Source: Janibacter sp. Soil728
GTDB taxonomy: Bacteria > Actinomycetota > Actinomycetes > Actinomycetales > Dermatophilaceae
Direction of reading: 5' to 3'
Assembly (NCBI RefSeq): GCF_001428305.1
Contig: NZ_LMRZ01000001.1
Span: 62,289 to 126,288 of the forward strand
Length of the DNA: 64,000 nucleotides
This document shows positions 21,291 to 37,266 of the stretch, one piece after another (position 1 is the first letter of the stretch; every line of letters starts with the position of its first letter). Position numbers and translations under genes: made by a program. The notes under the pieces are model-generated. The model did no database searches. It saw only the letters and a list, made by a program, of their open reading frames with translations, and was not told the origin of the DNA.

Positions 21291-21852
21291 CGGAGGTCCT
21301 GCCCGTTTCACGCAGTTCAGGCGGAATCACAGCGAAGATCTCAGCGCTGATCGTGTCCTCCAGAGCCTGCGTCTTTCCTGCAGCCTGCAGCGCCATGACC
21401 TTCCGGTGGCGTACGGACTCTGTTGCCAGCCAGAAGGACCACGCTTTGATGAGGCCGTTGGCCCAAGCGACCGTTCGCTGGGGCAGCTCCGGCGCATCAG
21501 TTGGAAGAGAGACCAGCTGTTCGCTGGGTGCCGCATCCAAAGTCACGTCGAATGGCACATCAGGCAGTCGAAGGGTCCGCCACTGACGCCGACACACTGT
21601 GCGTAGCTCCAAACCCGCGATCGACATTCGATCGATCACCTGAGTCACGTCGACGCCTGCCGGAAGCGATTCAGGGTGGCCGCCCGGGGCCCGAAGGACG
21701 ATGCGGTCGCCCGTCAGGAGATCCAGGGTGTCTGTGTCTGATCGATCCGTAACTACAGCGTTCGTGCTGCCAGCACGATTCTGCTCCGTGCGACCCACCA
21801 GCCAGACGGCTACGCGGTCGTCCTGCGCATCAACCACTGCGAACCCAAGCAT
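21283..21852 (-). CDS. Uncharacterised protein coupled to the DnaQ-BRCT gene, 189 aa
   Basis: Not recognised. ATG 21852 follows GAGGGCAAGAAC and starts the plausible protein MLGFAVVDAQDDRVAVWLVG. The sequence is a mix of beta and alpha without cysteines forming a zinc site (CRRQW only). The region AWANGLIKAWSFWLATESVR is helical, and the C-terminus is acidic. The stop lies inside the start region of the exonuclease gene, with an 8-bp overlap. That tight coupling suggests an accessory or regulatory subunit for the exonuclease (inference). Confidence 0.65.
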   Translation of the reverse strand: MLGFAVVDAQDDRVAVWLVGRTEQNRAGSTNAVVTDRSDTDTLDLLTGDRIVLRAPGGHPESLPAGVDVTQVIDRMSIAGLELRTVCRRQWRTLRLPDVPFDVTLDAAPSEQLVSLPTDAPELPQRTVAWANGLIKAWSFWLATESVRHRKVMALQAAGKTQALEDTISAEIFAVIPPELRETGRTSDA

Positions 21853-21956
21853 GTTCTTGCCCTCCGTCAGACACCCCAAGCCTGACGTCAACATAGCGCT
21901 CGACTACGACAATGATCCGGCTCCTCGGCCGGAGCTTCGCCAGAGTGCAGAGCGCG

Positions 21957-22826
21957 CTACTTGCGTTTCGGTCCTTGACGGAAGAGCCACAGCTCAATCT
22001 CATCGCCCCCAACTTCTCGACCGACCGCGTCGCTTGCCTCCGCAGCCCACCTCGTGAGGAGGTCGCAGTACCGCTCATACGTGGCAGTCGGCCAATTGCC
22101 GCCAGTTCGCAGCGACCACCACCCGTGGTGGTCGCGCAGGGCGCCGGCCACTCGGTCATCAAGGATGAGTGCCCGGTGACCGCTCGCACCGCCCCCGGCG
22201 AAATAGAGGACCTTGGTCAGGAAAGCGGGCCCCAGCCAGGGGATAGCGTTCCTGCCCTTGGGCCGTAGGACTTCGTATCCAGCGACGGGGTTGACCCGAG
22301 CCGCGGCGCAGGCTCGCCGCAGCACGTCTGCGGCCTCGGGCATGAGTTCGGCCACGGACATCAACCGGCGCCGGTTGTTGCGGCCTCGAGATCCCCATGC
22401 GAGGACGTGCCACAGGAACCTCAAGACGTCTTGATCGGAAGTCGCCTCATTCATGGCACCTCCGAGGCTGAAGACAGACCCCCGTGAGAGCGTTTGCTCG
22501 CGATCAGAGTCAGGAGCCACAGGCCCGCCGGGCAGTCCGTACTGCGCCAGAGCGGCCTGCCACCATGCCGAGTTGACTGGCACAGCGTGGACATACACGG
22601 ACTGCACACGTATTGGTGCCAGGTCGGTGGCGATCCCTGCCGGGAGACTGAGATCCGAGAGGTCGGTCATTCTGCGGCGAGGTTCTGGCGTGCCGATCAC
22701 GTTGTGCCAGAGGCCTCCACCGGCATGGAAGAACTCGGTTCCGACTTGGTCGCGGTGGGCTCCTCGGTGGCGACGGTCCAATGCGCACTGGGTCTGGGGG
22801 TAGAGGTTTGAGTAAGCGGCGCACAT
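21957..22826 (-). CDS. OGG-fold DNA-glycosylase-like protein, 289 aa
   Basis: ATG 22826 has GGGAGG eight bases upstream and begins with a short Cys/His segment (CAAYSNLYPQTQC then HRGAHRD). ATG 22670 would be a shorter start. The conserved core, about residues 160-289, has LRFLWHVLAWGSRGRNNRRR, WLGPAFLTKVLYFAGGG, LILDDRVAGAL, GWWSLRTGGNWPTATYERY and a DEIELWLFRQG end. This matches actinobacterial proteins annotated as 8-oxoguanine glycosylase OGG-fold (family name from memory). The Lys in LTK and the Asp in LILDD are candidate catalytic residues. It lies upstream of the DnaQ-BRCT pair on the same strand, consistent with a nucleic-acid-directed module. Confidence 0.7.
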   Translation of the reverse strand: MCAAYSNLYPQTQCALDRRHRGAHRDQVGTEFFHAGGGLWHNVIGTPEPRRRMTDLSDLSLPAGIATDLAPIRVQSVYVHAVPVNSAWWQAALAQYGLPGGPVAPDSDREQTLSRGSVFSLGGAMNEATSDQDVLRFLWHVLAWGSRGRNNRRRLMSVAELMPEAADVLRRACAAARVNPVAGYEVLRPKGRNAIPWLGPAFLTKVLYFAGGGASGHRALILDDRVAGALRDHHGWWSLRTGGNWPTATYERYCDLLTRWAAEASDAVGREVGGDEIELWLFRQGPKRK

Positions 22827-23127
22827 CCCGGGCCTCCCTCGATTCACGAGCACCTCATAGGCAGACCCTTTCGCACTGCGTGACCGGCCGCAAGAGTGCG
22901 CCTCGTCGAAGGGGGGTTGAGGCGGAGCCCTTGCATGTCGGTCGAATACCGGTAACGTTTCGCGCGTCATCCATTGATCTCCGAGACGCAACAACTGAAT
23001 GGTCGCTGGGGTGCACCAACCACCCACATACAGCTATGGGACTTACCAACCCCTCCGCGCGTCTAGCCAACGCGTGTGCGCCTGACCAGCGCGACCGGGC
23101 CTTCATGCTCGCGAGAGGAGAGTCCCC
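22827..23127. other. Divergent intergenic region, no gene seen
   Basis: 301 bp between the OGG-fold gene (minus) and the ribbon-helix-helix gene (plus). It probably holds both promoters. No convincing gene or repeat was found. It was also scanned without success for a transposon end beginning TGT and matching the 36.4-36.7 kb region. Confidence 0.4.
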
Positions 23128-23346
23128 TTGCCCGATCATCCAGTTCACCGTCCAACGCTCGCCGCTCATCGCGGGCGTCCCAGGATCTCACCAGAGTCCT
23201 CCGCGTCCACCGTGCGCGTCGAGGTCCGCCTCCCACGCGACGTAGCAGCGGACATCTATGCCGTCGCCGACCGCGAGAACGTCACGGTGAGTCGCGCGGT
23301 GGCCGACGCCTGGCGTCAAGGCATGGCGCGAGGTGACGGCATGTAG
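23128..23346 (+). CDS. Small ribbon-helix-helix-like protein, 72 aa
   Basis: The TTG start at 23128 is supported by GAGAGGAGAG eight bases upstream. The C-terminal 45 residues fit the RHH (CopG/Arc) pattern: a beta strand STVRVEVRLPRDV, helix ADIYAVADRENV and helix TVSRAVADAWRQGMA. RHH proteins are small dimeric DNA-binding regulators or antitoxins. No toxin gene follows. It sits 131 bp upstream of the leader ORF of the tns operon and could regulate transposition genes, or simply lie outside the element. Confidence 0.6.
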   Translation: MPDHPVHRPTLAAHRGRPRISPESSASTVRVEVRLPRDVAADIYAVADRENVTVSRAVADAWRQGMARGDGM

Positions 23347-23394
23347 CCGGCCCGGGCGAATCGTCTGGAGCCCATTCCCCCCAGACATGCGAAA

Positions 23395-23414
23395 AGCCGG
23401 GTGGCCACCCGGCT
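23395..23414. terminator. 20-bp perfect palindrome after the RHH gene
   Basis: The sequence AGCCGGGTGGCCACCCGGCT is self-complementary over 20 bp, preceded by AAA and not followed by a T-run. Its place between the RHH gene and the tns leader suggests a terminator or attenuator-like hairpin, or a protein-binding palindrome near the transposon end. Confidence 0.5.
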
Positions 23415-23477
23415 GACGCATCGAAGCGCGAAGCGAATCGCGCCGTCAAACCCAACTCGACCCTTGGAGGTCTACGC

Positions 23478-23552
23478 ATGCCATCTTGGCGACCCCTTCC
23501 ATACCTGTCAACAGCACCAGTCGGCGTCTCACGGGGCGGTGAGTCCTCGTGA
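23478..23552 (+). CDS. Leader ORF of the tns operon, 24 aa
   Basis: ATG 23478 has a strong site (GGAGG at 23466-23470, 7-nt spacing), better than that of tnsA itself. It encodes 24 residues beginning MPSWRPLPYL and ends in TGA at 23550-23552, which overlaps the tnsA GTG at 23549 (GTGA). tnsA therefore probably depends on translation of this leader by re-initiation. The peptide has no known family. It could also be a remnant of a longer tnsA N-terminus in another frame. Confidence 0.5.
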   Translation: MPSWRPLPYLSTAPVGVSRGGESS

Positions 23553-24445
23553 CGGCTTCGGCGAAGGCGTCACACCGGCTGGGCAGCAGAGTCGACTACC
23601 TACCGCGGGCTCAGGGCCCTTCAGCTGATTGGGCAGAGGTCCGGCTAACAGCAGACGGTGAACGTCTCGAAGAGGTGGTCCGGCACACGCGGGTGACTAT
23701 CCGTCGGCGGTCCGGCGGGATGGACGGCAGCCGGGTCGAGGACCTGTCCCTCGACGAGGCCGCGGCCTTGACTCCCGACTCCCTTCTAGAAGTGCGCCGG
23801 CCGGTCTCCTACAAGGGGATGCGCAACTACATCGGACGAATGGCACTTCCGTCCCAGGCATACCAAGCGCACGCCGGTTGGTTCGAATCCAGGAACGAGC
23901 AGGAGCATTATCGCGAGCTGCTCATACGGCAGGCGGTCATGCAGATGGCTACGCAGCCCCTTCGGCTGGCGTGGGCGTTCCCTTCAGGTGTGCGCACCCA
24001 TGTCCCGGACGCCTTCCATCTGACTGTCGACGGACGCATCACCCTGGTCGACGTCACTCGCCGTAGGCGGCTGGAAACGCCTGAAGCCGTAGCGATCTTC
24101 CTGCTCGCCCAAGCGACAGCTGGCGCCTTGGGCTGGCGATACGAGCTGCGCGACGAACTGTCGCCTCAGCACCAACGCAATGTCTCCCTCGTCTACTCAC
24201 ACCGCCACACCACGCCATCAACACACACGTGGAGGGCAGCCGTGAAGGGGATGCCCGCCACCCAACAGGTGCTGCAAGCGGCCCAGGCCTTGGGCGTCGG
24301 CGCGTCCCCCAACTACGCCGCGGTCTGGCACCTCGCGGCCACTCGCCACCTCTTCATCGATCTCACCCGAGCACTCACACCCGACGCGGTCGTCCGCCGC
24401 CGCCCCCTCTCGACCAGGAGCAACCCATGCCTCATCAGTCTGTGA
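23549..24445 (+). CDS. tnsA: TnsA-like heteromeric transposase endonuclease subunit, 298 aa
   Basis: TnsA cuts the 5' ends of a Tn7-like element so that, with TnsB, the transposon is fully excised. The restriction-like core is visible: GWFESRNEQEHY (Glu113, Glu117), THVPDAFHLTVDG (Asp154), then ITLVDVTRRRR (Asp168). The usual Gln-X-Lys of TnsA is replaced by Asp-X-Thr, with arginines following, so the catalytic Lys is not obvious. The N-terminal 70 residues are specific to this subgroup. The GTG start overlaps the leader ORF stop. The 3' end overlaps tnsB by 19 bp. Confidence 0.88.
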   Translation: MTASAKASHRLGSRVDYLPRAQGPSADWAEVRLTADGERLEEVVRHTRVTIRRRSGGMDGSRVEDLSLDEAAALTPDSLLEVRRPVSYKGMRNYIGRMALPSQAYQAHAGWFESRNEQEHYRELLIRQAVMQMATQPLRLAWAFPSGVRTHVPDAFHLTVDGRITLVDVTRRRRLETPEAVAIFLLAQATAGALGWRYELRDELSPQHQRNVSLVYSHRHTTPSTHTWRAAVKGMPATQQVLQAAQALGVGASPNYAAVWHLAATRHLFIDLTRALTPDAVVRRRPLSTRSNPCLISL

Positions 24446-26673
24446 ACGATCAGCCAGGACCAGCCGGGTCGAGCGAATCCACACCAGCGCGCCTGCACAA
24501 GGTCGCGCCGGGAGCCCTCGTCACGTACGAAAAGAAGACCGTCCGCATCGTCAGTTTCGAGCGTGGGCCCGCCGGAAGGCTGGAAGCCCTGATCGATAAC
24601 GGGTCAGGTCTCCAACGGGTCCCCATCGCTTCCTTGTTCGCGGCCATCGCGGACCTGGAACCGGCGACACCCGACGCCGAGACCGAGGCGGAGTTCCAGT
24701 CACCGCTCCTGGCTGAGCTCCCCGACGAGGAGCGCAAGCGGATCGAGACTCGCTACCGCGACCTGAAGCAGGCTGCCACCGGCAGCCGCCACGGCACCCC
24801 GGAGGCGGACCGCGCGCGGGGAGTGCTCTCGCCCACCTACGACCCGCTAGTGCACAACAAGGGCGAACGATGGAGGGCGAAGTCCGAAGAGCTAAAGGCG
24901 CGGGGCGAGTCCGCCACCTCGGTCCCGCAACTTCGACGCCAACTCGACGCCGTCGACCTCAACGGAATCGAAGCGCTGATCCACGGCAACAAGAAGGCCC
25001 GCAAGCATCAACTGGCTGGTGCCGACGAAGAGGTGATCGCGGTGCTAACCGAGTTCCTCCACGCGCAACCCGGTCGAGCCCGCACGAGCAACAAGGCACT
25101 CCTGGTGCTCGGCAAGGCGGCGCTGGCTCAGGCTGGTGTCGGCCAGGAGCTGACCGACTACAAGCTGCGCATCATCATCGGCGAACTCTCCCGGGCCCTC
25201 GACCTCCATCACGAGGCCAAAGGCCGAGAACGCGTGGCGCTGAAGCCCGACGTCGTCTACGGCCGACGGCTCGTCTCGCGACCCGGTGAGATCGTCCAGA
25301 TCGACGCAACGACCACCAACATCCACGTCTTTGACCCCCGACTCGGCTGGATCCGCTCGACAATCCTCACCGCCATCGACGTCTTCACCCGCTGCGTCCT
25401 CGCCCTTCGGGTCATCACCGGATCAGCGACCACCCGGGACGTGACCATGCTTCTGTGGGACATCGGCCGACCAACTGTGACTCGATCCGGCTACCCCTAC
25501 GAACTCATCCACCACCACGGGATGCCTCGCCTGATCGCCGTCAATCACGACCCCGATGAGCCGGCCGACTCGAACCACATCGACATCTTGGGAACCAAGC
25601 CGGCGCTCATCCCCAGCGCGATCGTTGTCGATCACGGGCGTGAGTTCGACTCGGAACACTTGATGTCCGCCTGCGCCCGCATCGACGTGGACGTGATCTT
25701 CTGCCCGCCCCGAGCGGCCCATGCGAAGGGAGTGGTCGAGTCCCTCCACAACGGTTGGCGCGAGGTCCAGTCCCTCTTGACCGCGTACAAGGGCGCCAAC
25801 GTCAACAACCATCCCAAGGGCGTCGAGGACCTCGCCACGCTGACAGCTCAAGACCTACGCGACGCCCTATGGGAGTACGTGCTGGAGATCTACCACTGGC
25901 GCGAACACCAAGGACTCGCCGACCTCCACAACTCCCAGACGCCCCTGTGCCCAGCCGGTGTCTTCGAGGCCTACCTTGAATCAGGAGGCGAGGTCACCGT
26001 CCCGACGGACCCCTTCCGGCTCATCCAGCTGCTGTCCTCGAAGAAGTGCCTGGTCCAGCCCTACGGGATCAACATCAACGGACGCGTCTACAACAACGCA
26101 ACGTTGGTCTCCCTTCGTCAACACCTCGCACGAGGGGTGGGCACGCCGGCCACGCCCCTCCTGGTCTTCTACGACCGCTGGGACATCAGCCGGGTCTACA
26201 CGCGGCATCCGGTCACTGGGGAGTGGCTGTGCATCCCACGAGCCGGCGAATCACCGCACGCTCTTATGCCCTGCAGCGACGCCTTCGACACAGCCATCCG
26301 CAAGCAACTCATCCGTGGTGACTCCCGTCCCCTGAACGCCACAGACCTCACCAACGCCAGCGCCGAGTTCGTCAACCGTTGGGCACCCGAGAAGTTCACC
26401 GACCGCAACGAAGCCCGAATCTTGGCCCTCGAAGCCGGCCGCGCCCACGACTACGCGCACGACCTCGCCGACGCCAGCCCCGAGTTCCGCGAGCTCGCCT
26501 TCGGGAACAGCAACGACCGGGAGACCCTCCCAGGAGAAATCGTCCAGACCACGGCCGACAGCGACGACATCCTCGACTCCGACCTGGCCGACCAGGACGA
26601 AGAGATCGACCTCGACAACCTCGACGACTACTCCCCCGACAACGCCATCCTCGGCCGCAAGGAGGCCTCGTGA
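24427..26673 (+). CDS. tnsB: TnsB-like DDE transposase, 748 aa
   Basis: Carries out DNA cleavage and strand transfer at the 3' ends. The DDE triad is Asp293 (QIDATTTN), Asp402 (IVVDHGREFDS) and Glu438 (HAKGVVESLHNG), with 35 residues between the last two, the classic D-35-E spacing. The N-terminal part is DNA-binding (HTH-type, LRIIIGELSRALDLH). After the catalytic core comes a Mu-type beta-barrel (KKCLVQPYGININGRVYNNA), and an acidic tail ends the protein. The tail probably contacts TnsC (family knowledge). ATG 24427 lies inside the end of tnsA, and the stop overlaps tnsC (GTGA). Confidence 0.95.
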   Translation: MPHQSVNDQPGPAGSSESTPARLHKVAPGALVTYEKKTVRIVSFERGPAGRLEALIDNGSGLQRVPIASLFAAIADLEPATPDAETEAEFQSPLLAELPDEERKRIETRYRDLKQAATGSRHGTPEADRARGVLSPTYDPLVHNKGERWRAKSEELKARGESATSVPQLRRQLDAVDLNGIEALIHGNKKARKHQLAGADEEVIAVLTEFLHAQPGRARTSNKALLVLGKAALAQAGVGQELTDYKLRIIIGELSRALDLHHEAKGRERVALKPDVVYGRRLVSRPGEIVQIDATTTNIHVFDPRLGWIRSTILTAIDVFTRCVLALRVITGSATTRDVTMLLWDIGRPTVTRSGYPYELIHHHGMPRLIAVNHDPDEPADSNHIDILGTKPALIPSAIVVDHGREFDSEHLMSACARIDVDVIFCPPRAAHAKGVVESLHNGWREVQSLLTAYKGANVNNHPKGVEDLATLTAQDLRDALWEYVLEIYHWREHQGLADLHNSQTPLCPAGVFEAYLESGGEVTVPTDPFRLIQLLSSKKCLVQPYGININGRVYNNATLVSLRQHLARGVGTPATPLLVFYDRWDISRVYTRHPVTGEWLCIPRAGESPHALMPCSDAFDTAIRKQLIRGDSRPLNATDLTNASAEFVNRWAPEKFTDRNEARILALEAGRAHDYAHDLADASPEFRELAFGNSNDRETLPGEIVQTTADSDDILDSDLADQDEEIDLDNLDDYSPDNAILGRKEAS

Positions 26674-27662
26674 GCACCTTCCACGCCGACGACCCCTCGA
26701 CCTGGCCGGCACACATCGAGTGGCTCCAGAAGCGCGCAAAACCCCGCAGCGGCGAGCCCCTCGACGCGTACGTGGAATGGAACCTCGGCATCGGCCCCCT
26801 CGTCACGGACGACACGAAGAACGTCGAGAGTGCCATTGCCCGAGCGCAACACCGCAGCCGCCGCGCACCGTTGGGTGGCCGCGACGTGGTCATCATCGAC
26901 GGTTCACCTCTGGCCGGGAAGACCTTCGCCGCACTGTCCGTCGCTCTGAAGCAGACCGCGAAGGCGCAGACAGAACCACCACCCCACCCCACCTGCGTGC
27001 ACCCAAGACCTTGGGCCTATGCAGAAGTACGGCGCCAGACGGGCGCCGCTGGCGTAGCTCGATCTCTGGCTCAGAGTGTCGGAGCGCTCGTGGATTCGAA
27101 ACGCCCGTCGCTGGCCGACTGCATCTCCGCCATCCGCCACATGACGCCCAAGGTCGGGTTCCAGGGGTACATCGTCGACGACGTGCACGGCATGCTCGGC
27201 GCTGGGTCGAAGGATTCAACAGCGCTGGCCACGGGTCTGAAGAGCCTGATCACTGGCATCCCCGTTCCCGCTGTCATCATCGGGGCCGACCTGAAGCGGG
27301 ACGGCATCTTCCAAGGCACCGCCGGCGAACAGGTACGCCTATCCGCTCACGACTGGGTGATGTGCGGCGACTGGAAGACCCCAGACGGTAAGTCCACGAC
27401 GGGATGGGAACGGCTTCTACGGGAGCTCAAGCACCACCTGGCCCTACCCGGGGGCGCGAAACAGTTCCGCCTGACGCATGGAGCGCTCCACGCGCTGGTC
27501 GAAGGGTCCCTCGGGCGCCCCGGCCTCGCGATCAGGTGGGTGACCTCGGCAGCGAACTACGCCATCGCGAACGAGGCCACCCTCGACCACGACGCACTGA
27601 CAACGACCTACTCAGAGATCGACCCCGCACGGGCGACCCTGTCCATGGAGGTCAGGGCATGA
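26670..27662 (+). CDS. tnsC: TnsC-like AAA+ ATPase regulator, 330 aa
   Basis: The ATP-dependent adaptor that links target selection by TniQ to the TnsAB transposase. Walker A GSPLAGKT starts at residue 78 and Walker B is GYIVDDVHGM (Asp170, Asp171). The GTG at 26670 is preceded by GGAGG (26661-26665) and overlaps the tnsB stop. The protein is shorter than Tn7 TnsC and lacks the long terminal arms, similar to TniB/TnsC of other Tn7-like groups. It overlaps tniQ by ATGA at its 3' end. Confidence 0.92.
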   Translation: MSTFHADDPSTWPAHIEWLQKRAKPRSGEPLDAYVEWNLGIGPLVTDDTKNVESAIARAQHRSRRAPLGGRDVVIIDGSPLAGKTFAALSVALKQTAKAQTEPPPHPTCVHPRPWAYAEVRRQTGAAGVARSLAQSVGALVDSKRPSLADCISAIRHMTPKVGFQGYIVDDVHGMLGAGSKDSTALATGLKSLITGIPVPAVIIGADLKRDGIFQGTAGEQVRLSAHDWVMCGDWKTPDGKSTTGWERLLRELKHHLALPGGAKQFRLTHGALHALVEGSLGRPGLAIRWVTSAANYAIANEATLDHDALTTTYSEIDPARATLSMEVRA

Positions 27663-29152
27663 CCCCGCTACCTCTGCGTGTCGCCCCGCACCCGAACGAG
27701 GCGTGGCACGGATACCTCGCCCGCACTGCAGCCCAGTACGACGCGACCGTTGCCAGGCTGGCCGACCATATCCGGCTTCGGCGCGACGGCCGGTGGCCGG
27801 GCTACCACGGTGTCCTCCTCGACGCGCAGACCGCCTCGGCGACCGCCGAGGAGCTCAACCTCGAGGCGACGGAGGTCCTGCAAATGCAGCTGGCCAGCCT
27901 CGACCAGTCAGCGTTCGACTTGACCGGGCTAGACATCCCTCAGAGACATCAAATGGCCGCGACCCAGCGAGTGACGAACCAAGGGTGGGTCTTCCTCGCC
28001 GGCGGTCGCTACTGCGCGACCTGCCTGCGAACTGACGGCGTATGGCGCCTGGAGTGGCGGATCCCGTGGATCACCACGTGCACCCTTCACGGGTGCTGGC
28101 TGGAGCACCGATGCCCCCGCTGTGAAGGGGTCATTGGCCGGTACAACGGCCTCAACGCAACTGCCCCTTCCCGAGCGGCCACCCGGATCGGTTCACGTTT
28201 CTGCGACCTCCCCTTCGGCCACGGGACCTGTGGGGCCGACCTTGCGGAAGGAGACATGAGGCCATGCCCTCCGGAGGCAACCGAGTCCACGAGGAACTTC
28301 CGCACGACTATCGGTTCGCAGGTCGGCGTCGTCGCAGGCAAGCAACAAAGCAGTCTGAAGACGCTGCAGGCGTGGCAGGCAGCCATCGGCATATCCATCT
28401 CGCTCGGACGCAGCCGCACCACCACAGCGCTTCGAAACCACCGATGGACATCGCCACCACGCGATGCCCTGGAGGTTCACCAGCTCGTCATGGACGTCGC
28501 ACCCTTCGTGAAGGCCGAGTCCGTCGACCAGGCAGCTGACGAACTCCTCGAGTGGTGTCGTACCGCCGGTATCCCCAGTCCGCACCGAGACACCTTCGCA
28601 CGAGCCACGCGGCCAGCCTCTGCCCTGACACCCGTGACGACTACCGCCCTCGCTCGCGTAGGTAGGGTCCACATCCGCCTAGCCCGACAGCGCGTACATG
28701 ACCAGCAGACGCTGCCACTGCTCCCATGGGCTCCCGACGATGTGCCGCAACTGGCGTGGCCCTGCACGCTCCCACCGAAGTGGCGGACGAGCACTCGCCC
28801 CGACCAGCTCATCCTCCGCGCCGTCCTCGCAATGCTGCTCGTCCGCATGCACAGCGGCGCCACCTGGGCCGACTCCGGGGCCACGTTGGGCATCCCGCCG
28901 GACAAGGCCCGCAACTGGACCCGCTACTGCTTCTCCGCGCGGTTCCACCACCTCAAGGACGACCTGATCAACGCCGCACAGAGCACGGCCGATGTGCTCC
29001 CACACCAGCCCACACGGGCAGCGTGGCACCGCAGACCGGATGTCACCGACGACTTCGGCACCTGCTCCCTCAAGCAGGCCCAGGCACCCCGGTGCCGCAA
29101 TGACGACCCCACCGCCACGTGGTGCCCCTGCACATCGGAGTCGCGTCCATGA
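27659..29152 (+). CDS. tniQ: TniQ-family target-selection protein 1, 497 aa
   Basis: Begins MTPLPLRVAPHPNEAWHGYL, the standard TniQ opening. It contains the zinc-finger pair CATCLRTDGVWR ... WITTCTLHGCWLEHRCPRC (CxxC and HxxxxxHxCPxC type), then a helical C-terminal region with a late HTH-like segment (SGATWADSGATLGIPPDKAR). TniQ/TnsD proteins bind the attachment DNA or another guide and recruit TnsC. The start overlaps tnsC (ATGA) and the stop overlaps the second tniQ (ATGA). The presence of two TniQ genes suggests two target pathways or a hetero-complex. Confidence 0.9.
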   Translation: MTPLPLRVAPHPNEAWHGYLARTAAQYDATVARLADHIRLRRDGRWPGYHGVLLDAQTASATAEELNLEATEVLQMQLASLDQSAFDLTGLDIPQRHQMAATQRVTNQGWVFLAGGRYCATCLRTDGVWRLEWRIPWITTCTLHGCWLEHRCPRCEGVIGRYNGLNATAPSRAATRIGSRFCDLPFGHGTCGADLAEGDMRPCPPEATESTRNFRTTIGSQVGVVAGKQQSSLKTLQAWQAAIGISISLGRSRTTTALRNHRWTSPPRDALEVHQLVMDVAPFVKAESVDQAADELLEWCRTAGIPSPHRDTFARATRPASALTPVTTTALARVGRVHIRLARQRVHDQQTLPLLPWAPDDVPQLAWPCTLPPKWRTSTRPDQLILRAVLAMLLVRMHSGATWADSGATLGIPPDKARNWTRYCFSARFHHLKDDLINAAQSTADVLPHQPTRAAWHRRPDVTDDFGTCSLKQAQAPRCRNDDPTATWCPCTSESRP

Positions 29153-30462
29153 ACCCAGACCTGAACGAGAACGTCACACCCCTTGCACTGCGCGTCGCCC
29201 CTTTCAAAGGGGAGGCTTGGCCCGCTTACCTCGAACGAACGGGCGATGAGTACCAGTGCCACCCAGCAACCCTCGTCGAGCCCATTAGCCGCCGCTGGGC
29301 CAACCGGTTACATCGCGGCCGCACCGCGTGCACGTCCGGGGTCTCCATGACCCAGCCCGTGGCGGCGGCGGTGGCCAAGCGGCTCAACCTCTGTCACACC
29401 GAAGTGCTGGCCATGCAGTTGTCAGCCCACCAGGGCATCACCCTCAGCCTCGACGAGGGCACCATCGCCCTCTTCGACCCGGTCGTCGGAACAGCAAAGG
29501 CCCGTGACGTAGGCAGTGTCGGGTGGGTTGCCCACCCCAGATCGCGGCGGTGGTGCCCTCGCTGCGACCGAGAGCGACCAGACGTCGACCTGCTCGTCTG
29601 GCGCTACCCCTGGGTGACCGTATGCCTTCAGCACGAAGCCCTACTCCGCCCCTGCGCCAAGGGTGACTCCGAGAACGCCACCTCGTTTGACTGGCAAGGT
29701 CTGGTCGACACTCAGGCCGACCTCGAGGCCATTCTGGCGGGCAGACGGTCCTTCCAACGGCTGTCCGTCCGGGACGGCTTCACCGAACTGCTGGCTGCCA
29801 CCGCCGTGCTCGCAAGCCGAAGGGGAACCTCAGCGCTCGAGCCAACGGACATCTGGCAGCCCAGCTTCATGGCCAAACTCCTGCCCGACGCCTTCACCGC
29901 CGTCGAGACGGCGATCGATGAGTGGCCACACGCTCTCGACGACCTGGTCCGTGGCAGGCACAAGGGCGCCTACCTCAACCATGTACTGCAAAAGTTCGGT
30001 GCAACCAGTCCTTTCGGGCTGCGCTCGGACCTCACGCGCTACGTCTCGGAGCCGGGCCACTTCCTCGACCCATGGGCGCGCGACATCCGCATCCCCAGCG
30101 AGCACCAACCTCTCGTGACCCCGCGGACCAGAGCCGCTGCCATGACCTCTCTTCCCCGCATGATCCCCAAGCACCTGGCAGTACCGACCCTGACGGACTT
30201 CACGCCTTGGCTAACCACCCGCGACGTCCAGATCGCTGCCGCTCAGGCTGCGTTCATGCTGGCCACGGGAGGGAACCTCAAAGAGGCCTGCGATCATCTG
30301 AACTGGCCCGGGACCCGGCAGGTCCCGCTACGGCGACTGTGGTGGCATCTTGAGTCAACGGGCCAATTCGGGGAATACCTCGACGCATTACAGCGAGCCT
30401 CGCGCTCCCTCTTAAGCGACCGGCGGTCGACTGAAGCCGACCAGGCATCCCCGACTGAGTAG
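29149..30462 (+). CDS. tniQ: TniQ-family target-selection protein 2, 437 aa
   Basis: Starts with the same pattern as TniQ 1 (TPLALRVAPFKGEAWPAYLE) and has one clear zinc motif (RRWCPRCDRE ... VTVCLQHEALLRPC). The rest diverges from TniQ 1, so the copies are old paralogues rather than a recent duplication. Last gene of the five-gene overlapping operon. Paired TniQ proteins are known in several Tn7-like groups, where one recognises the chromosomal site and the other another target or a guide complex (established for CAST and TnsD/TnsE-like systems; the role here is inferred). Confidence 0.87.
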   Translation: MNPDLNENVTPLALRVAPFKGEAWPAYLERTGDEYQCHPATLVEPISRRWANRLHRGRTACTSGVSMTQPVAAAVAKRLNLCHTEVLAMQLSAHQGITLSLDEGTIALFDPVVGTAKARDVGSVGWVAHPRSRRWCPRCDRERPDVDLLVWRYPWVTVCLQHEALLRPCAKGDSENATSFDWQGLVDTQADLEAILAGRRSFQRLSVRDGFTELLAATAVLASRRGTSALEPTDIWQPSFMAKLLPDAFTAVETAIDEWPHALDDLVRGRHKGAYLNHVLQKFGATSPFGLRSDLTRYVSEPGHFLDPWARDIRIPSEHQPLVTPRTRAAAMTSLPRMIPKHLAVPTLTDFTPWLTTRDVQIAAAQAAFMLATGGNLKEACDHLNWPGTRQVPLRRLWWHLESTGQFGEYLDALQRASRSLLSDRRSTEADQASPTE

Positions 30463-30578
30463 CGCTCGACCGGCTACCTGACAAATGTCGTTCGCGAGGA
30501 GCCACGGGACCCCAGAAGCGAGTTGAATGGCACCAGATAGTCGGAAGAAGGCCGGACACCAACCTTGGGGGGCAAGCC

Positions 30579-33500
30579 GTGGCTCCAAAGCGGAAGCGAG
30601 GGGCACCCTCAGGTCAGACGCGGTCGAGGAGCCCGCGGCGTCCTGCGCGCAAAGAACAACCGAACGGAGCAGCCACTCAAACGACGCTTGACCGTCGGCG
30701 CGCCATGGACCCCCAGAATCTCTGGGACGACCTCCGACAGGGCTCACGCAACGTCGCGGGCGTGACGTGGCAGGTCGACGTATGCGTGTACATGCTGATC
30801 GCCGGCCACGCTGGTGAGCTGCCCTTCGTCTGTATCACTCCAGAGGGCTATGAGGATGCCGACTGCGAGCACGCGAACGGCGCCCAGACATTCGTGCAGA
30901 TGAAGGAGGTCAGTGCCGGCCAAGGGCGTCTTGCTGCGGCTGCGGTTGCCATGGCTCTAGCCCATGCGGAAGCAAGTGGGAGAGGTTCCGAGATCACCCT
31001 GGTGACCGACGGGACCTTGGGGTCTGGCCTCTCTTTCACTGGCTGGTTTGACGTACTTTCCAGTCAGCAGACTCAGGGCGTCGAAAACGTCGTCAATGCC
31101 CTAATCGACCTCAAATATGGCGGTGGCGAGGCCAAAAGCATCGTGTCGCGGGCCCACGTGGTTCAACTGCCGTACCGCGTGAGAGAACTGAGTGAACAAC
31201 TCCTGGCACAGTCGACAGGACGCCCCGCCACCGTGTGCGGACTTTCTGTGGGCAAGCTGACCGAGCTGATCGCAGATGCTTCGGCAGCTCAGCGCCACAG
31301 TAAGCCCCAGGCAGCACGCCGGCTCCGGACGACCGACGTCGATCAGGTTGTCTCCAGCGTCCAAGATGCCGTCGACACGCGCGGACTTGACCGGGCCCAG
31401 CAAGCGGGCGTCTGTGAACCCGCCGACTTCCTTGCGCCCGACGCCGTCCCGGCCCGAACGTTCTATCTCGGCATGGACGGCCAGCCTGGCCACGTGGCGG
31501 CCAACCTTGATGTCATCCGCCCCATCGAACTCGTCGCTTGTGCAGAGGGCCTGCGCGACGAGCACAGTGTGCTGATTCTTGGCCCGTCCGGTTCTGGCAA
31601 ATCGGTCCTCCTCTGGCGGGCTGCCCGCGACTTGGTTCCCTCGTCCCGGGTCCTGAGAGTTCGTCGGGTGGCCACCGAGAACGATGCGGTTTCGCTGGGT
31701 CGTCACGTACGTCTCATGCGCCCGAGCGAACATAGCCCAGTACTCGTAGTCGCCGACGATCTCGGCCGGCCCGCAACCGCGGCTTGGCCCGACGCTGCTA
31801 AGCGGCTGCGAGAAACCCAGCACACTTATCTGCTGGGTGCTGCTCGAGCAGAGGACTTCCATCCAAGCTTGCTGGTTGGTGCAACCCGAGTCGTCCAACC
31901 CCACCTCGACCTTGCCACGGCGAGAGAGATTGGATCACGTGCGCAGGACATGGGGATAACTCTGCGTATGGATGTGCAAGAGGCTCTTGCCGAGAGCGAG
32001 GGACTACTGATGGAATTCTTGGCTGTCCTCACAACGGGTCAGCGGCTGCGCCAAGTCCTCAGCACCCAAGTAGCCGATCTAGCTCGCCCGGATCGGCGGT
32101 TGCAGCGAGACGCGGCGCGGCTACTTACAGCTGCCCATGCGCTCGGACTCTCCCTTGACTCCAACCGCCTAGCAGCAGCTCTAGCCCCTACAGGCGATGA
32201 GGCGCCAGTCGGCGATGCCCTTGCCATACTCCGCGACGAGCACATCATTGTTGAGGACCTGGGAACCTGGCGCGGCCTCCACGAACTTCGTTCGGCCACC
32301 ATCACCGAGCTCTTGCATGAGAGCCCTCCGCCCACCCTGGGCGCTACGTGGGCGCGTGTAGCCGCCCTACTCAAGCCGGGCGAGGCCGGCTGGATCCTGA
32401 GGCGAGCAGCCGAGCGGGACGCGGCTAGCGTCCCTGAACTAATCCCTGCCATTGGCCGCCTCATCACAGCCCCAGAACGCACCGCAGTTGAGGTGGCGAG
32501 AGTTCTAGAGGGCGCAGAACGCGCTGACAATGCCATCTACGCTCAAGCTTCGATCCCCGTCCTTCGCTCGAACCTCCGACCGGGGGTCCAACTGTCCGAC
32601 CTCGCCATGCTGGTTTACCCCACGCGGAACCAAGAGTTCACACTGGAGCCCTCCTCTTCTGAGGCATGGCGCACCATGATCAACAGGGTGAAGGACGTCG
32701 CGGCCCAGATGCCGCTCCGCGTTAACTTCGATAACACCTTGGCGGAGACCTGCGCGGCCCTGACGGACGGTGTCGTCGCGCGACTCCTGAGTGATTCCGA
32801 CATCGTCGACATAGTTCGCCTGCTCGAAGCAGGGCGTGAATACCTGAGGGTGCCCTTGCCAGCGATCCGCACTCTTACTCAGAGGGTAGAGAGGCCACAC
32901 GACGTGCGCACTGCGTTGGTGTACTCACGGCTGGTTTCTGCCTTGGCTCGCCATATCCCACCCAGCGAAATCGAGTCCGTGCTGGGCTCGCCCAACCAGC
33001 GGGCGCTAGCCGTCGCCCAGGCTGATCCGTGGACTCTTGCCGTCGAGGTCGATGCGGCCGGCGGCAAGATCCAAGTGCAACGGTTACTTCCTTTCGATGG
33101 GGCACTGCCTCCAGTGATGGACTGGGATTCGCCACGCACAGATCGATCTGAAGCACTCAACGTAGATGTCGTCGCTTGCATCGAACGACTAAAGGACGCA
33201 TGCCCTGAGATCAGTCAGTTCGAATTGCGAACACTGACCGCGTCTGGCACTCCTTATCGCGTCGCAGATCATGAGCCTGGGCACAAGAACATGCACCGTA
33301 AGCGGTTCCCCAACCGCTCCTCCGTTAGGCAGGCCGTTGGCTTTCAGGCTGCACTCCGCCGCGCGACTGAATCTCAAACTTGGACCGAGGTGATTCGAGA
33401 GCAGATCGAGGTAGCCAAAGAACTAGTCGATCTCAGCGCCCAAGTACCACTACGACTTAAGCCTCATGACAACAGCGGCCGAAGGACTGCTTGGCTCCAA

Positions 33501-34736
33501 CGCGTTGAGCAGGCGAACCATCGGCTCGCTGACATCAGTCCGCCTCCAATGGGTCGCACAGCGGGGCCTGCGGTAGCCGCAGGCCGACACGATCAAGTGG
33601 ACCGTCGTCGCGATGCCACCAGCCATGCCCTGTCTATCGCTGCCGACGCGTTGGAGGCGCTATGTCCGGGAGACCAAGCACAGTCGCCGCCCAGACCACT
33701 TGCCGTAGCTATGTCTTTGCGGTCGGCGGCCAAGACCCTCGAGGACGCCCTCGGAGAGGGCCGGACCGTTCTTGGACACCTCGGCTCGCCTATCCCCGAC
33801 GAGCTCATCAAGAACCTCGAGCGATCTGCCAATCTGGCAGCAGCCATCGCCACGGCGCCGAAGGTTTCGGGTCGGATCAGAGCTTCGGAACCCCTCGATT
33901 CGTCTGACGAGATCTGGGCTGATGTCGCGAGCCAGACGACCAGCGCGGCGTCAGTTCTGCTCCACCAGCTTCTCCACGATTTCTCTAGCCCCGAAATAGA
34001 GCGCGTCCTCGATCCCGACCCTCCAACGTGGTCTCTAGACCAGAAGGCATGGCTAATCACGGCATCCATGGACGATCTCGACCCGCTCGCGGAGCGACTC
34101 GACACGTTGTCAGACGACGACCGCAGCGAACTCGCCGGTCGACTCGTTGTACTTGCTGTCGGGCACCGTGGCCCCATTGGCCCCGACCAGGATCAAGGCA
34201 TGGCTGAGGCGCCCCTCAATTTCGCTGAGCCACACCGCGTCTCACTTGATGTGGGCCTTCAGCTGAGCTACAGCTCTTCTCGTTCACCCATCCCCTTGAC
34301 GCCCGAGCAAGCAGCCATGTGGGCCACAGCAAGCGGGCTCGCCCGCAATTCGGACGACCCTCTCCCGCCAATCGCTGCGCTGGAAGACCTAATCGTCCGA
34401 TCAACGAATGCTGCGCTGGTCCGTATGCGCCGGCTGCCCCCGGCACCTGCGCATCCCGTCTCACCCAGCACGTCTGAGGAAGGCCGACCACAGCCGACAC
34501 GGACGGCAAACGGTCTGACGAACAGCGCCGCCGCTGAAGCGCTTCGCACCCTGGAGTCGCAGGTCGCCGCCGAGGAAGCAGGGACCGCAACAACAGCATT
34601 GGCCGCGGTGGTGATCCCAGCCTCGACGGACGACGTCCTCACGAGTGATGAGAGTGTCCTCCTATCGGCAGTCCTTGCTCTTCACTTCGCTCGGTTGAGT
34701 CAGCAGAACGGCTTCGGCCAGGACCCCTACTCTTGA
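30579..34736 (+). CDS. Nuclease-STAND NTPase, candidate antiphage protein, 1385 aa
   Basis: First gene after the tns operon. Residues about 55-115 look like a Cap4/Mrr-type PD-(D/E)XK nuclease: VTWQVDVCVYMLIAG, then Glu92-Asp93 in EGYEDADCE and the Gln107-Met-Lys109 motif in FVQMKEV. A P-loop NTPase follows: Walker A GPSGSGKS (335-342) and Walker B LVVADDLG (Asp393-Asp394). About 850 residues of helical, repeat-like sequence complete the protein. This effector-STAND-sensor order is that of Avs and related antiphage NTPases, but the sequence matches none I can name. GTG 30579 follows GGGGGG. ATG 30705 is an alternative that drops a basic Arg/Ser-rich segment. Codon use is visibly more AT-rich than the core genes. 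Confidence 0.72.
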   Translation: MAPKRKRGAPSGQTRSRSPRRPARKEQPNGAATQTTLDRRRAMDPQNLWDDLRQGSRNVAGVTWQVDVCVYMLIAGHAGELPFVCITPEGYEDADCEHANGAQTFVQMKEVSAGQGRLAAAAVAMALAHAEASGRGSEITLVTDGTLGSGLSFTGWFDVLSSQQTQGVENVVNALIDLKYGGGEAKSIVSRAHVVQLPYRVRELSEQLLAQSTGRPATVCGLSVGKLTELIADASAAQRHSKPQAARRLRTTDVDQVVSSVQDAVDTRGLDRAQQAGVCEPADFLAPDAVPARTFYLGMDGQPGHVAANLDVIRPIELVACAEGLRDEHSVLILGPSGSGKSVLLWRAARDLVPSSRVLRVRRVATENDAVSLGRHVRLMRPSEHSPVLVVADDLGRPATAAWPDAAKRLRETQHTYLLGAARAEDFHPSLLVGATRVVQPHLDLATAREIGSRAQDMGITLRMDVQEALAESEGLLMEFLAVLTTGQRLRQVLSTQVADLARPDRRLQRDAARLLTAAHALGLSLDSNRLAAALAPTGDEAPVGDALAILRDEHIIVEDLGTWRGLHELRSATITELLHESPPPTLGATWARVAALLKPGEAGWILRRAAERDAASVPELIPAIGRLITAPERTAVEVARVLEGAERADNAIYAQASIPVLRSNLRPGVQLSDLAMLVYPTRNQEFTLEPSSSEAWRTMINRVKDVAAQMPLRVNFDNTLAETCAALTDGVVARLLSDSDIVDIVRLLEAGREYLRVPLPAIRTLTQRVERPHDVRTALVYSRLVSALARHIPPSEIESVLGSPNQRALAVAQADPWTLAVEVDAAGGKIQVQRLLPFDGALPPVMDWDSPRTDRSEALNVDVVACIERLKDACPEISQFELRTLTASGTPYRVADHEPGHKNMHRKRFPNRSSVRQAVGFQAALRRATESQTWTEVIREQIEVAKELVDLSAQVPLRLKPHDNSGRRTAWLQRVEQANHRLADISPPPMGRTAGPAVAAGRHDQVDRRRDATSHALSIAADALEALCPGDQAQSPPRPLAVAMSLRSAAKTLEDALGEGRTVLGHLGSPIPDELIKNLERSANLAAAIATAPKVSGRIRASEPLDSSDEIWADVASQTTSAASVLLHQLLHDFSSPEIERVLDPDPPTWSLDQKAWLITASMDDLDPLAERLDTLSDDDRSELAGRLVVLAVGHRGPIGPDQDQGMAEAPLNFAEPHRVSLDVGLQLSYSSSRSPIPLTPEQAAMWATASGLARNSDDPLPPIAALEDLIVRSTNAALVRMRRLPPAPAHPVSPSTSEEGRPQPTRTANGLTNSAAAEALRTLESQVAAEEAGTATTALAAVVIPASTDDVLTSDESVLLSAVLALHFARLSQQNGFGQDPYS

Positions 34737-34905
34737 TGTGATCCAGTCACAACCCCAACCACGCCACCCCAGTTCCCGGAGGCACCTACGGTGCTGGGTG
34801 GGCCGCACTCGAGCGACGACCGGCCGGCAGAGATGAAGTAGCGCCTGACAACGAAAAGGGGAGGATTCGTGCATCACAAAGCGAGTGGGGCGACGAGGTA
34901 TCCCG
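34737..34905. other. Spacer between the two cargo genes
   Basis: 169 bp with no gene. The STAND gene ends and the nuclease gene starts without an obvious terminator, so read-through transcription is possible. Confidence 0.3.
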
Positions 34906-36444
34906 ATGGACCGTGAACGAAGTGAGCGCCGCCGACCCCCCTTCGCGCGCAACTACACCACTTTCGCCAGTGAGATCCGTAGGTACCCGCTAACCCCGCT
35001 GCTGCGTGAGCTCTCCGGTCGCGCGTGGGAAGCCGCTAACCGGCGATATTCGACGGACGAGCCCCTCGGCGTCGTCCAGGAGTTCACCATCGCCGGGATC
35101 GCGCGAGTTGCGCTGCAGCACGGCACGGACGACCGCTCGTGGCCGCGCAGGATCCCCAGCCTCCAGGTCCTCTGCAGCGCCTACATTGACCTCCCCGAAC
35201 CCGAAGTGGTTGAGGGCAACCTCGACGTGAGCGCGATTCTCGCCCGAATGGCCCACGAGCAATATCCTGCCCAGAGCATGGGGCCGGAGGCCTTCGGTCG
35301 CCTGCACGCCCTGACAGCGGACTACCTGCCTCAAGTGGTCAACGGACCGACGCCGGCGGACTGGCAGAGTCACCTCGGCGTCACGCTTGTCGACTACTGG
35401 CGAATCGGTTGGATCATGCTCGTGGCCCTCGGCAGCAACAATGGCGCCATCGGGTGGGCGACCCTGGCCGCTCCCCACGTCGCGCCGCTCTTCTCCCCGC
35501 TCAGCGCGGATCAGGTGAGGTCCGTCATCACGCGGCGTTTCGCCCAGTCTGTCCCCGACGCCCAGGCAGAGGCCCGGGCAAATATGTTCCAGCCATCTCC
35601 GAAGTGGTCCCAAAGCCCCCTGGAGAGACGGCCCCTTCTCGACGTCGGGGAGGACCTGGTTGGTCCCGCGCCACACTTCCTGATGGGCCAACTCACCCCC
35701 ACCGGCCTCTACTACCTCGGTCTCGACGTCTTCGGTAAGACCTTCGGCCAGGCGCTCGGAGATGCCTTCGAGAATTACATCGGCGCACAGTTGGACCTTC
35801 TTGCGCACGCGCAGGTCCATCGCGAGATCACCTACGGCAAAGACAGCGGGAAGAGCTGCGACTACATCGTCGTCACGGCAGAGTGCGTGATGCTCGTCGA
35901 GTGCAAAAGCGGGCGACCCGACCTGGATGCGCGACAGGGGGACTCCTCAACCGCCATGAAGAAGATCGAGAAGGCCAGGGAGCAGCTCGAGACCACGGCC
36001 AATCTCATCCGCACTCGTCACCCGAACTTCGCTCATATCCCTCGCGATCGCCCCTTCATCGGGCTTGTCGTCACCCTCGAGCCCCACTACGTCATCGAGA
36101 CCCTGTCTGAGGACCACCTGATCTCCGAGGTGCTCCCCATCGCCGCCGCCACGTCCAACGACGTCGAACTCCTGACTGCCGCACTGGCCAGGCGTACAGA
36201 CCTCGGCGAACGACTACGGGACAGGATCTTCGCGCGCCCACCCATGGCTCCACGACCGCCGCGCGTACAGGCAGCGATTGAGGACCTCTTGGAGACGGCA
36301 CCACGTAATCCCATCGTCGGAGCCGGTTGGGATTCTCTCACTGATCTTCCCGGCATCCAGATCCTCGCGAACCAAGAGCTTGCCTCGAAGACCCTCAACG
36401 AGCGCGAACCGGCGGAAACACCAGAGGGGCCCAGCCTTTCGTGA
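34906..36444 (+). CDS. Protein with C-terminal PD-(D/E)XK nuclease motif, 512 aa
   Basis: ATG 34906 has GAGG eight bases upstream. The N-terminal 290 residues are helical and not recognised (WRIGWIMLVALGSNNGAIGW is partly hydrophobic but not a clear membrane span). Around residues 290-345 lies a restriction-like core: a Glu in DAFENYIG, Asp319 in SCDYIVV, then Glu332-Cys-Lys334 in MLVECKSG. This D...ExK pattern fits an active PD-(D/E)XK nuclease. It is the last apparent cargo gene of the Tn7-like element, so a host-defence or anti-competitor role is likely (inference). It could act alone or with the STAND protein. Confidence 0.7.
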   Translation: MDRERSERRRPPFARNYTTFASEIRRYPLTPLLRELSGRAWEAANRRYSTDEPLGVVQEFTIAGIARVALQHGTDDRSWPRRIPSLQVLCSAYIDLPEPEVVEGNLDVSAILARMAHEQYPAQSMGPEAFGRLHALTADYLPQVVNGPTPADWQSHLGVTLVDYWRIGWIMLVALGSNNGAIGWATLAAPHVAPLFSPLSADQVRSVITRRFAQSVPDAQAEARANMFQPSPKWSQSPLERRPLLDVGEDLVGPAPHFLMGQLTPTGLYYLGLDVFGKTFGQALGDAFENYIGAQLDLLAHAQVHREITYGKDSGKSCDYIVVTAECVMLVECKSGRPDLDARQGDSSTAMKKIEKAREQLETTANLIRTRHPNFAHIPRDRPFIGLVVTLEPHYVIETLSEDHLISEVLPIAAATSNDVELLTAALARRTDLGERLRDRIFARPPMAPRPPRVQAAIEDLLETAPRNPIVGAGWDSLTDLPGIQILANQELASKTLNEREPAETPEGPSLS

Positions 36445-36588
36445 CCACCCGAACCACTTGTTGACGAAGATTTGAGCCACGCCAGACGGCGATAACTCGC
36501 CTGCATGAGGATGGTGGACACCCTCGCAGCAAAGGTCGACGTCGCCCTCCGGTCAACTCCAACAGGCACGCCCATGGTCAGAATGCTC

Positions 36589-36640
36589 GATCACGAAGTG
36601 ATCAGAATCCCCGTGAGGCCCTCCTCCAGTGATCAGATTC
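36589..36640 (-). repeat. TGATCA-type sites upstream of the MazEF-like pair
   Basis: GATCAC-GAA-GTGATC (36589-36603) is a perfect inverted repeat. On the minus strand, GATTCTGATCAC (36597-36608) and GAATCTGATCAC (36629-36640) repeat the same pattern 32 bp apart. They share GAWWnTGATCA with the array at 10457-10567. They lie between the Tn7-like cargo and the RHH antitoxin gene, near the place where a transposon end is expected. Confidence 0.55.
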
Positions 36641-36674
36641 CTTCGAACCCGGACACCTACCGCTGCTCGAAGGT

Positions 36675-36693
36675 GCATCCCACATCGGGATGC
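36675..36693. promoter_or_regulatory. Probable autoregulatory operator of the MazEF-like pair
   Basis: GCATCCC (36675-36681) and GGGATGC (36687-36693) form a perfect 7-bp inverted repeat around ACATC, 20 bp upstream of the antitoxin start. RHH antitoxins bind such sites in their own promoter. Confidence 0.5.
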
Positions 36694-36713
36694 GCTGGGT
36701 TACCATGGGGTCC

Positions 36714-36947
36714 ATGAGCACCCAGATCGCCGTACGCCTTCCCGACGAGATGGTCGAGTTCCTCGACCGCTCCGTCGCGAGGGGCGAGGCACCCAGCCGC
36801 GCAGCACTGGTGACATCTGCGCTGGAGCGAGAGATGCGCCGTCTGGCCGCTGAGCATGACGTTGCCGTCCTCACCGAGCGTGGCACGGCCGACGATCTCG
36901 ACGTCGTCGTCGAGTGGACCGCTGCCCACGTCGACGTCGGGGACTGA
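36714..36947 (+). CDS. Ribbon-helix-helix antitoxin of a MazEF-like pair, 77 aa
   Basis: ATG 36714 was chosen over the in-frame upstream codons because the RHH strand begins at once (MSTQIAVRLPDEMVEFLD). The helices SVARGEAPSRAALVTSALER follow. The C-terminal half (VLTERGTADDLDVVVEWTAA) is the toxin-binding tail of MazE-like antitoxins. It precedes the MazF-like gene by four bases, the usual order. The palindrome at 36675-36693 is a likely operator. It marks the return to core-like, high-GC sequence on the right of the island. Confidence 0.82.
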   Translation: MSTQIAVRLPDEMVEFLDRSVARGEAPSRAALVTSALEREMRRLAAEHDVAVLTERGTADDLDVVVEWTAAHVDVGD

Positions 36948-36951
36948 GGGC

Positions 36952-37266
36952 GTGCGAGAGATCTGCTTGGTGCGTCTGGACAAGACCCGGCCGGCGCTCG
37001 TGCTGACGCGTGAGACCGCCCGCGGGGCGATGACCAAGGTGACGATCGCGCCCATCACGACGACGCTCAAGGGACTGTCGAGCGAGGTGCGAGTCGGCCG
37101 GGACAACGGCCTCGATGCGGAGTGCGCCGTGGCTCTGGACAACGTGGTCACCGTGCCGGTGGAGCTGCTCGGGCGCACGGTCGGGTATCTCTCGAGCACA
37201 CAGGAGGCCGAGCTGGCGCGCGCCGTGGTCGTGGCCTACGACCTGGACCTGCCGCTGACAGGATGA
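36952..37266 (+). CDS. MazF/PemK-type mRNA interferase, 104 aa
   Basis: GTG 36952 gives a protein beginning VREICLVRLDKTRPALVLTR, the beta-barrel start of MazF/PemK toxins, followed by TIAPITTTLKGLSSEVRVG, NGLDAECAVALDNV and LLGRTVGYL. MazF toxins cleave mRNA at short sequences. A longer frame upstream is an overlap with the antitoxin gene. The length of 104 residues is normal. The stop overlaps the start of the alcohol dehydrogenase gene (ATGA at 37263), an unusual coupling of a toxin with a metabolic gene, perhaps accidental. Confidence 0.86.
   Translation: MREICLVRLDKTRPALVLTRETARGAMTKVTIAPITTTLKGLSSEVRVGRDNGLDAECAVALDNVVTVPVELLGRTVGYLSSTQEAELARAVVVAYDLDLPLTG

Follow-up and report, generated by a model that had tools for sequence, protein, structure and literature searches.

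The analyzed stretch of DNA (64,000 nucleotides of Janibacter sp. Soil728, contig NZ_LMRZ01000001.1, positions 62,289 to 126,288 of the forward strand; hereafter the window, whose own coordinates are used throughout) holds a Tn7-like element with two TniQ genes, located directly downstream of a gene for an Orc1/Cdc6-like ATPase. Along the window, the guanine plus cytosine (GC) content falls from ~71% to 64% between ~10 and 37 kb. The features that define the element and its immediate surroundings are the following:

9226-10440, + strand: Orc1/Cdc6-like AAA_16 ATPase gene (hereafter the AAA gene), which lies outside the element and is its attachment (target) gene (Pfam AAA_16, E = 1.4e-20; weak NCBIfam orc1/cdc6 match)
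10444-10449: left copy of the target duplication, CCTACC
10450-36655: whole transposon, 26,206 bp, GC 64.3% vs. 71-72% in the flanks
10450-10479: left terminus, TGTCCGGG, matching the right terminus in inverted orientation
10464-10567, + strand: four inward-facing TnsB-like sites of the left end (starts 10464, 10495, 10534 and 10556)
23549-24445, + strand: tnsA (NCBIfam NF033179, TnsA_like_Actin, E = 3.4e-24, below the curated cut-off)
24427-26673, + strand: tnsB, DDE transposase (Pfam Mu-transpos_C; rve below cut-off)
26670-27662, + strand: tnsC, AAA+ ATPase (Walker A at residue 78, Walker B at residue 166)
27659-29152, + strand: tniQ1, 497 amino acids (aa), proposed homing selector (PF06527, E = 4.9e-17)
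29149-30462, + strand: tniQ2, 437 aa, second TniQ (PF06527, E = 3.6e-10)
36599-36641, - strand: two inward-facing TnsB-like sites of the right end
36648-36655: right terminus, CCCGGACA
36656-36661: right copy of the target duplication, CCTACC
36714-37266, + strand: host flank, a ribbon-helix-helix/MazF-like pair, also present behind the AAA gene at the unoccupied site of a relative (G012)

Since matching ends occur at 10450 and 36655, with CCTACC outside both and TnsB-like sites at both, the element was delimited as 26,206 bp. The duplication is perfect and lies directly outside the two ends, which show the TGT/ACA termini and the arrays of inner candidate TnsB sites characteristic of Tn7-like elements. 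The pattern GGAWWNTGATCA, derived from these same ends, matched seven times in the 64 kb with one mismatch allowed (0.95 expected), and six of the seven matches were at the two ends. The locus is thus very probably occupied by a complete-looking, site-specific Tn7-like cut-and-paste transposon with dual TniQ proteins and defence-type cargo, inserted at the AAA gene. The original prediction, made from the sequence of the window, had already described a complete Tn7-like element with two TniQ genes, and the five core genes lie where it had put them, with Pfam recognizing TniQ twice; it had also proposed a search for TnsB sites and TGT/ACA termini, both of which are present at 10450/36655. Its borders (23347-36600) enclosed only the right half of the element, and were rejected given that no end-like repeat pair occurs near 23 kb and the full pair lies at 10450/36655; the 5-bp duplication it expected is one of 6 bp in the window. 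An IS21-type reading of TGTCAACGG ends, prompted by their TGT start, was dropped because identical ends also flank tnsABC loci.

It is highly improbable that the locus is a composite island, in which a short Tn7-like element (near 23-36 kb) would adjoin a left island that is older and unrelated to it. The tns genes do start ~13 kb from the left end and repeated stretches occur within the left cargo, but the matching termini and the perfect duplication span the whole interval, GC is low across all of it, relatives keep the layout of AAA-gene end, cargo and tnsABC, and no end-like repeat pair was found in the three stretches examined (21800-23700, 30400-30700 and 36300-37300).

The left end of the transposon lies 9 nt past the stop codon of the AAA gene. 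The corresponding site is empty in a genome of the same genus (G012), where an AAA ortholog 99% identical to that of the window is followed within ~65 nt by the ribbon-helix-helix/MazF pair. The insertion is specific in site and orientation, with an empty site in a relative, as in other Tn7-like elements. The original prediction had assumed an attachment site and left it unmapped; the site exists and can now be placed at the 3' end of the AAA gene, and the comparison with a relative lacking the element that it had suggested could be read in G012 at the true borders. Of 98 genomes, 84 (own included) had a match to the AAA protein at E ≤ 0.001, although in some of them it is only to a paralog. 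A transposon end was observed 6-19 nt past the AAA stop codon in 16 genomes, own included, a total that comprises genomes picked for related elements or ends and is not an unbiased rate. Among the best 30 AAA loci (L031-L060), a clear end directly past the stop codon was present in G000, G057 and G014, and a decayed-looking one in G054. Both G014 (L071, same genus) and G054 (L072) carry their transposon-like end in a genome without a TnsB match; these ends are either remnants or further elements without tns genes. A fixed distance of insertion from a coding motif, rather than from the stop codon, found no support, both distances being equally variable (standard deviation 3.8, n = 16).

A left-end pattern was then searched in 186 genomes of the family allowing up to three mismatches, with the reversed pattern as control. 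It was found at 18 places in 12 genomes, the control at none. Half of these places (9/18) were directly past the AAA stop codon (G112, G057, G496, G102, G074, G026, G065, G499 and G037), two were stacked behind an AAA-adjacent element (G102, known before, and G082, new), five were elsewhere (G115 twice, G102, G513 and G037), and two, at an N run or a contig end, could not be judged. Given genomes of 3-4 Mb, the spot at the AAA gene is strongly preferred.

The core tnsA-tnsB-tnsC-tniQ1-tniQ2 is intact, its neighbouring genes overlapping by 19, 4, 4 and 4 bp, and the element may still be active at present. Upstream, a 24-codon open reading frame (ORF; 23478-23552) runs into tnsA with a 4-bp overlap and may be the one that the original prediction termed a leader. 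The catalytic residues it had read in TnsB (D293, D402 and E438, the latter two separated by 35 residues), the Walker motifs of TnsC and the 4-19 bp overlaps were all confirmed. The TnsB profile matched TnsB structures (E = 3e-9), and that of TnsC matched VchTnsC (E = 0.003); no Pfam or NCBIfam match was obtained for TnsC. For TnsA, the profile search against solved structures returned nothing at E ≤ 1. The best match of its predicted fold (mean predicted local distance difference test score, pLDDT, 77) was Tn7 TnsA (1f1z/1t0f; E = 3e-6, probability 1.00, template modelling score 0.43-0.49), and its assignment as the TnsA endonuclease comes from this fold together with the below-cut-off NF033179 match. 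Residues 168-170 of TnsA read DVT, the same D, V and T occurring in four aligned sequences (own included), at what we take to be the position of the QxK lysine in Tn7 TnsA; cleavage by the TnsA of the window may therefore differ. TnsB shares 40% identity with its counterpart in Marihabitans asiaticum (G113) and 54% with that in Knoellia sinensis (G495), and its plasmid matches are distant: none of the 52 records at E ≤ 1e-30 reaches 60% identity. With roles taken from the Tn7 family, TnsB would bind the repeated sites at both ends and cut and join the 3' ends, TnsA would be its partner endonuclease and TnsC the ATPase adaptor, TniQ1 would read the AAA gene as homing factor, and TniQ2 would be a second selector or a co-factor.

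The TniQ1 profile matched a TniQ with E = 3.5e-6 over 40 residues, and orthologs (41-58% identity) were found in eight genomes counting the own one. In the four that are readable on one contig, the window's own among them, tniQ1 lies downstream of the AAA gene and on the same strand, at 17.2 (G000), 9.5 (G050), 13.4 (G113) and 11.4 kb (G496). In K. sinensis, a left end is present at the AAA gene, 2.8 kb past which the contig breaks off; a probable right end lies on the contig whose start is close to tnsA. In Nostocoides jenkinsii (G074) and in G102 the AAA gene bears an end and the core is separated from it by runs of 100 N; a second site for these displaced cores was considered and discarded, the runs lying ~2 kb upstream of tnsA in G074 and ~0.3 kb behind tnsC in G102. 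No AAA gene was found in the eighth genome (G520), which is 74% complete. A TniQ1-like fragment (36% identity) lies 1.9 kb behind the AAA gene of G108. Leaving aside the partner TniQs of the AAA-site elements, other TniQ homologs (26-36% identity, and 41% for one match of 49 residues) were either separated from the AAA gene by more than 100 kb or carried on a different contig. Among the 186 family genomes, K. sinensis alone had a full-length match to TniQ2 (45%), and G050 had a shortened match (residues 2-189, 42%), the remaining ones covering the N-terminal TniQ domain alone; the sister group carries a different partner, TniQ-a, placed before TniQ1. Because those orthologs of TniQ1 that are readable on one contig lie downstream of the AAA gene, TniQ2 is rare and the partner in the sister group is a different one, TniQ1 is proposed as a TnsD-like homing factor that would read the AAA gene. 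The gene tniQ1 is interrupted in G050 (L061, 10736-12838) and in G113 (at the L063/L064 junction), and tniQ2 is shortened in G050, so these two copies are probably no longer active; the right end of the G050 element, whose tniQ genes are interrupted, was not found.

Several observations weigh against homing to the AAA gene through TniQ1 as outlined here. The elements with a readable core all hold a second TniQ too, so presence alone does not tell which TniQ reads the AAA gene, and the structure model of TniQ1 was too poor (pLDDT 45) to be used. The left-end pattern was itself derived from ends at AAA genes, and six of its nine places there were known beforehand (new: G065, G499 and G037). The 11 new places divide into three at the AAA gene, one stacked behind, five elsewhere and two that could not be judged, and at least three of the five elsewhere are elements without tns genes; as only 3 of the 11 are directly at the AAA gene, homing is far from absolute. 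Finally, the 6-bp duplication of the window stands against 5 bp in five related insertions (TGTCA in G113, ATGTC in G102, GCCCA and TACCT in G115, CGAGC in G037) and in a probable sixth (ACAAC in K. sinensis, where the right end was located by looking for the expected duplication across ~56 kb and is for that reason only probable). It may stem from a cut of 6 bp, or from one of 5 bp with a further base added.

Four related small elements (2542, 3697, 4723 and 8972 bp; L165-L168) were found in three genomes of three genera (G115 twice, G037 and G102). Their left (409 bp) and right (168 bp) ends are shared at 97.7-100% identity, and outside these ends no DNA similarity was detected at E = 1e-10; each is flanked by a perfect 5-bp duplication, and three of the four are inserted at sites other than the AAA gene. 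Of 24 window proteins, tns and tniQ products included, not one matched inside them at E = 1e-3, and their left end had no plasmid match. They resemble cargo modules that the sister group would move in trans. They seem rare, since one further match, a partial one (88% over 222 bases, in G112), was all that 396 sampled genomes of the order yielded. At the AAA site, the right end of one element directly abuts the left end of the next in M. asiaticum (L063 and L064, at ~23399) and in G102 (L168/L068), which is serial stacking of Tn7-like elements; in G082 a right end precedes a second element without a matching duplication.

Two explanations for the pair of TniQ proteins were considered. According to the first, they serve two targets, TniQ1 the AAA gene and TniQ2 (or TniQ-a of the sister group) a second pathway, for example into other chromosomal or mobile DNA. 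TniQ2 and TniQ-a are strongly divergent in their middle and C-terminal parts and TniQ1 stays alike; related ends flanked by clean 5-bp duplications occur at sites other than the AAA gene, two of which appear to be intragenic; and dual TniQ loci elsewhere have been proposed to offer two options, in the consulted part of PMC10293859. Set against this, no TniQ2-bearing element was found away from the AAA gene among the 186 genomes, no plasmid matched TniQ2 at E ≤ 1e-8, and those insertions at other sites whose ends are known are tns-less members of the sister group. The separate targets suggested in the original prediction are thus a possibility, to which we give somewhat less than an even chance, TniQ2 having been seen beside TniQ1 alone (three genomes, one shortened). 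According to the second, both proteins form one target complex, a hetero-oligomer, with a single common site. The genes are adjacent with a 4-bp overlap and TniQ2 was found only beside TniQ1, in line with such a complex, but gene order and partner architecture differ between the two groups that use the AAA site, and we regard this explanation as doubtful.

The remaining genes inside the element make up its cargo:

10598-11533, - strand: NAD-dependent epimerase (Pfam)
11742-12647, - strand: methyltransferase (Pfam)
12706-13155, - strand: HEAT-repeat protein (Pfam)
13573-14703, - strand: EryCIII-like glycosyltransferase (Pfam)
15497-16465, + strand: TIR-domain protein, ThsB-like/PDC-S66 (Pfam TIR_2, E = 3.1e-16; PADLOC PDC-S66, 1.5e-36, and ThsB, 5.8e-20)
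16789-17397, + strand: methyltransferase (Pfam)
17488-18519, - strand: weakly HIRAN-like protein (below Pfam cut-off)
18440-19741, - strand: HAD_SAK_2-like protein (below Pfam cut-off)
19758-21311, - strand: DEDDh exonuclease (Pfam RNase_T, 7.8e-21; PADLOC PDC-S48, 1.1e-28, and a CRISPR-associated DEDDh model, 6.7e-26)
21283-21894, - strand: partner ORF overlapping the DEDDh exonuclease gene
21957-23027, - strand: OGG-like DNA glycosylase (PF21790, E = 6.2e-56)
30579-34736, + strand: nSTAND5 NTPase, 1385 aa (PF25199, nSTAND_NTPase5, 3.9e-9)
34885-36444, + strand: GapS1-like protein (NF047931, E = 6.8e-16; 58 bits, cut-off 320)

Several of these genes belong to families of defence type, which suggests a defensive function for them and agrees with the cargo anticipated by the original prediction; the cargo is larger than it had noted, ~13 kb of the left part having been missed. 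A QxK-type motif near the N-terminus of the STAND protein, read by eye, may mark a nuclease. The small partner ORF adjoins the DEDDh exonuclease in four of the six relatives compared, and the two may form an unnamed two-gene defence system; in G510 the pair has another tnsA/tnsB ~1 kb away. Between the left cargo genes there are three related stretches, each ~150 bp long (13248-13402, ~14790-14917 and 16531-16682), the first and the last having 76 nt in common at 79% and all three a 33-nt piece (73-91%). When the window proteins were compared with stretches from 18 relatives (E = 1e-4), the AAA, ribbon-helix-helix, MazF, ADH and tns/tniQ proteins matched and no cargo protein did. The Marihabitans element carries type I restriction-modification genes, and that of Knoellia carries ArsR, low-molecular-weight phosphatase-like and MIP genes. 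Relatives with tnsABC-tniQ-tniQ thus hold other cargo, so the cargo is exchangeable; the original prediction had counted tns/tniQ genes elsewhere without this cargo as an argument against it, and what they reveal is exchange, which leaves the transposon standing. Its view that the element is not CRISPR-associated held: no Cas effector was detected among the cargo proteins scanned with Pfam, PADLOC and NCBIfam (main ORFs, not every ORF), and no CRISPR-like array among the 20 listed of the 58 direct-repeat families in 8000-40000. The DEDDh exonuclease, which matches a CRISPR-associated PADLOC model, is not an effector.

Compared with known systems, the element resembles Tn7 of E. coli in having TnsA, TnsB and TnsC together with a selector of the TniQ family, multiple inner sites within TGT/ACA ends, and a position immediately past the 3' end of a conserved gene. 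For Tn7 that gene is glmS: TnsD binds its final 36 bp, and the transposon inserts ~20-25 bp farther on (PMC2918618). Here, in contrast, the target is an AAA ATPase gene rather than glmS, there are two TniQ genes and a 6-bp duplication, and sequence identity is low; no match to TnsE was obtained among the window proteins scanned with Pfam, and the two marks of Tn7 proper, insertion downstream of glmS and TnsE, are thus both missing from these results. The Cas effectors and CRISPR array that characterize CRISPR-associated transposons were likewise not seen within the element in the scans made. Host phylum (by named relatives), core genes and defence-type cargo are shared with the Actinobacteria-dominated clade 2 of Benler et al. 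(2021, PMC8649781), of which the element is probably a member, placed there by host and gene content; according to the consulted passages of that article, no member had been experimentally characterized by 2021, and the AAA attachment gene does not appear in them. Two tandem TniQ genes are also the feature of the dual tniQ-tnsD loci of Faure et al. (2023, PMC10293859). The consulted passages of that article report 998 such loci, in which one protein usually exceeds 400 aa and the other is substantially smaller, unlike the present pair, both members of which exceed 400 aa (497 and 437). Judging from these parts of the two articles, an element with dual tniQ loci and defence cargo is of a kind already known. 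Close counterparts are the elements of M. asiaticum and K. sinensis, which likewise have an end at the AAA gene and two tniQ genes after tnsABC; that of M. asiaticum differs in that TniQ-a precedes TniQ1. The AAA attachment gene was not found in searches of an open-access library, which lacks most subscription papers, and this is no proof of its being unpublished.

With exact ends, empty site and target gene now known for a probable clade 2 element, direct reconstitution becomes possible, and the system could become a tool for site-specific integration in high-GC actinobacteria, with the target gene left intact. The role of the paired TniQ proteins becomes testable as well, because TniQ1 is alike across the AAA-site elements and its partner is not. 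For the dual-TniQ family as a whole (Knoellia/Nostocoides/Marihabitans-type), we tentatively propose, with a confidence that falls a little below the halfway mark, that the 3' end of the Orc1/Cdc6-like gene is a common docking site where elements pile up, that TniQ1 would read this gene and the divergent TniQ would open another route, and that the sister group may spawn tns-less elements, with 409/168-bp ends and changing cargo, that would be moved in trans.

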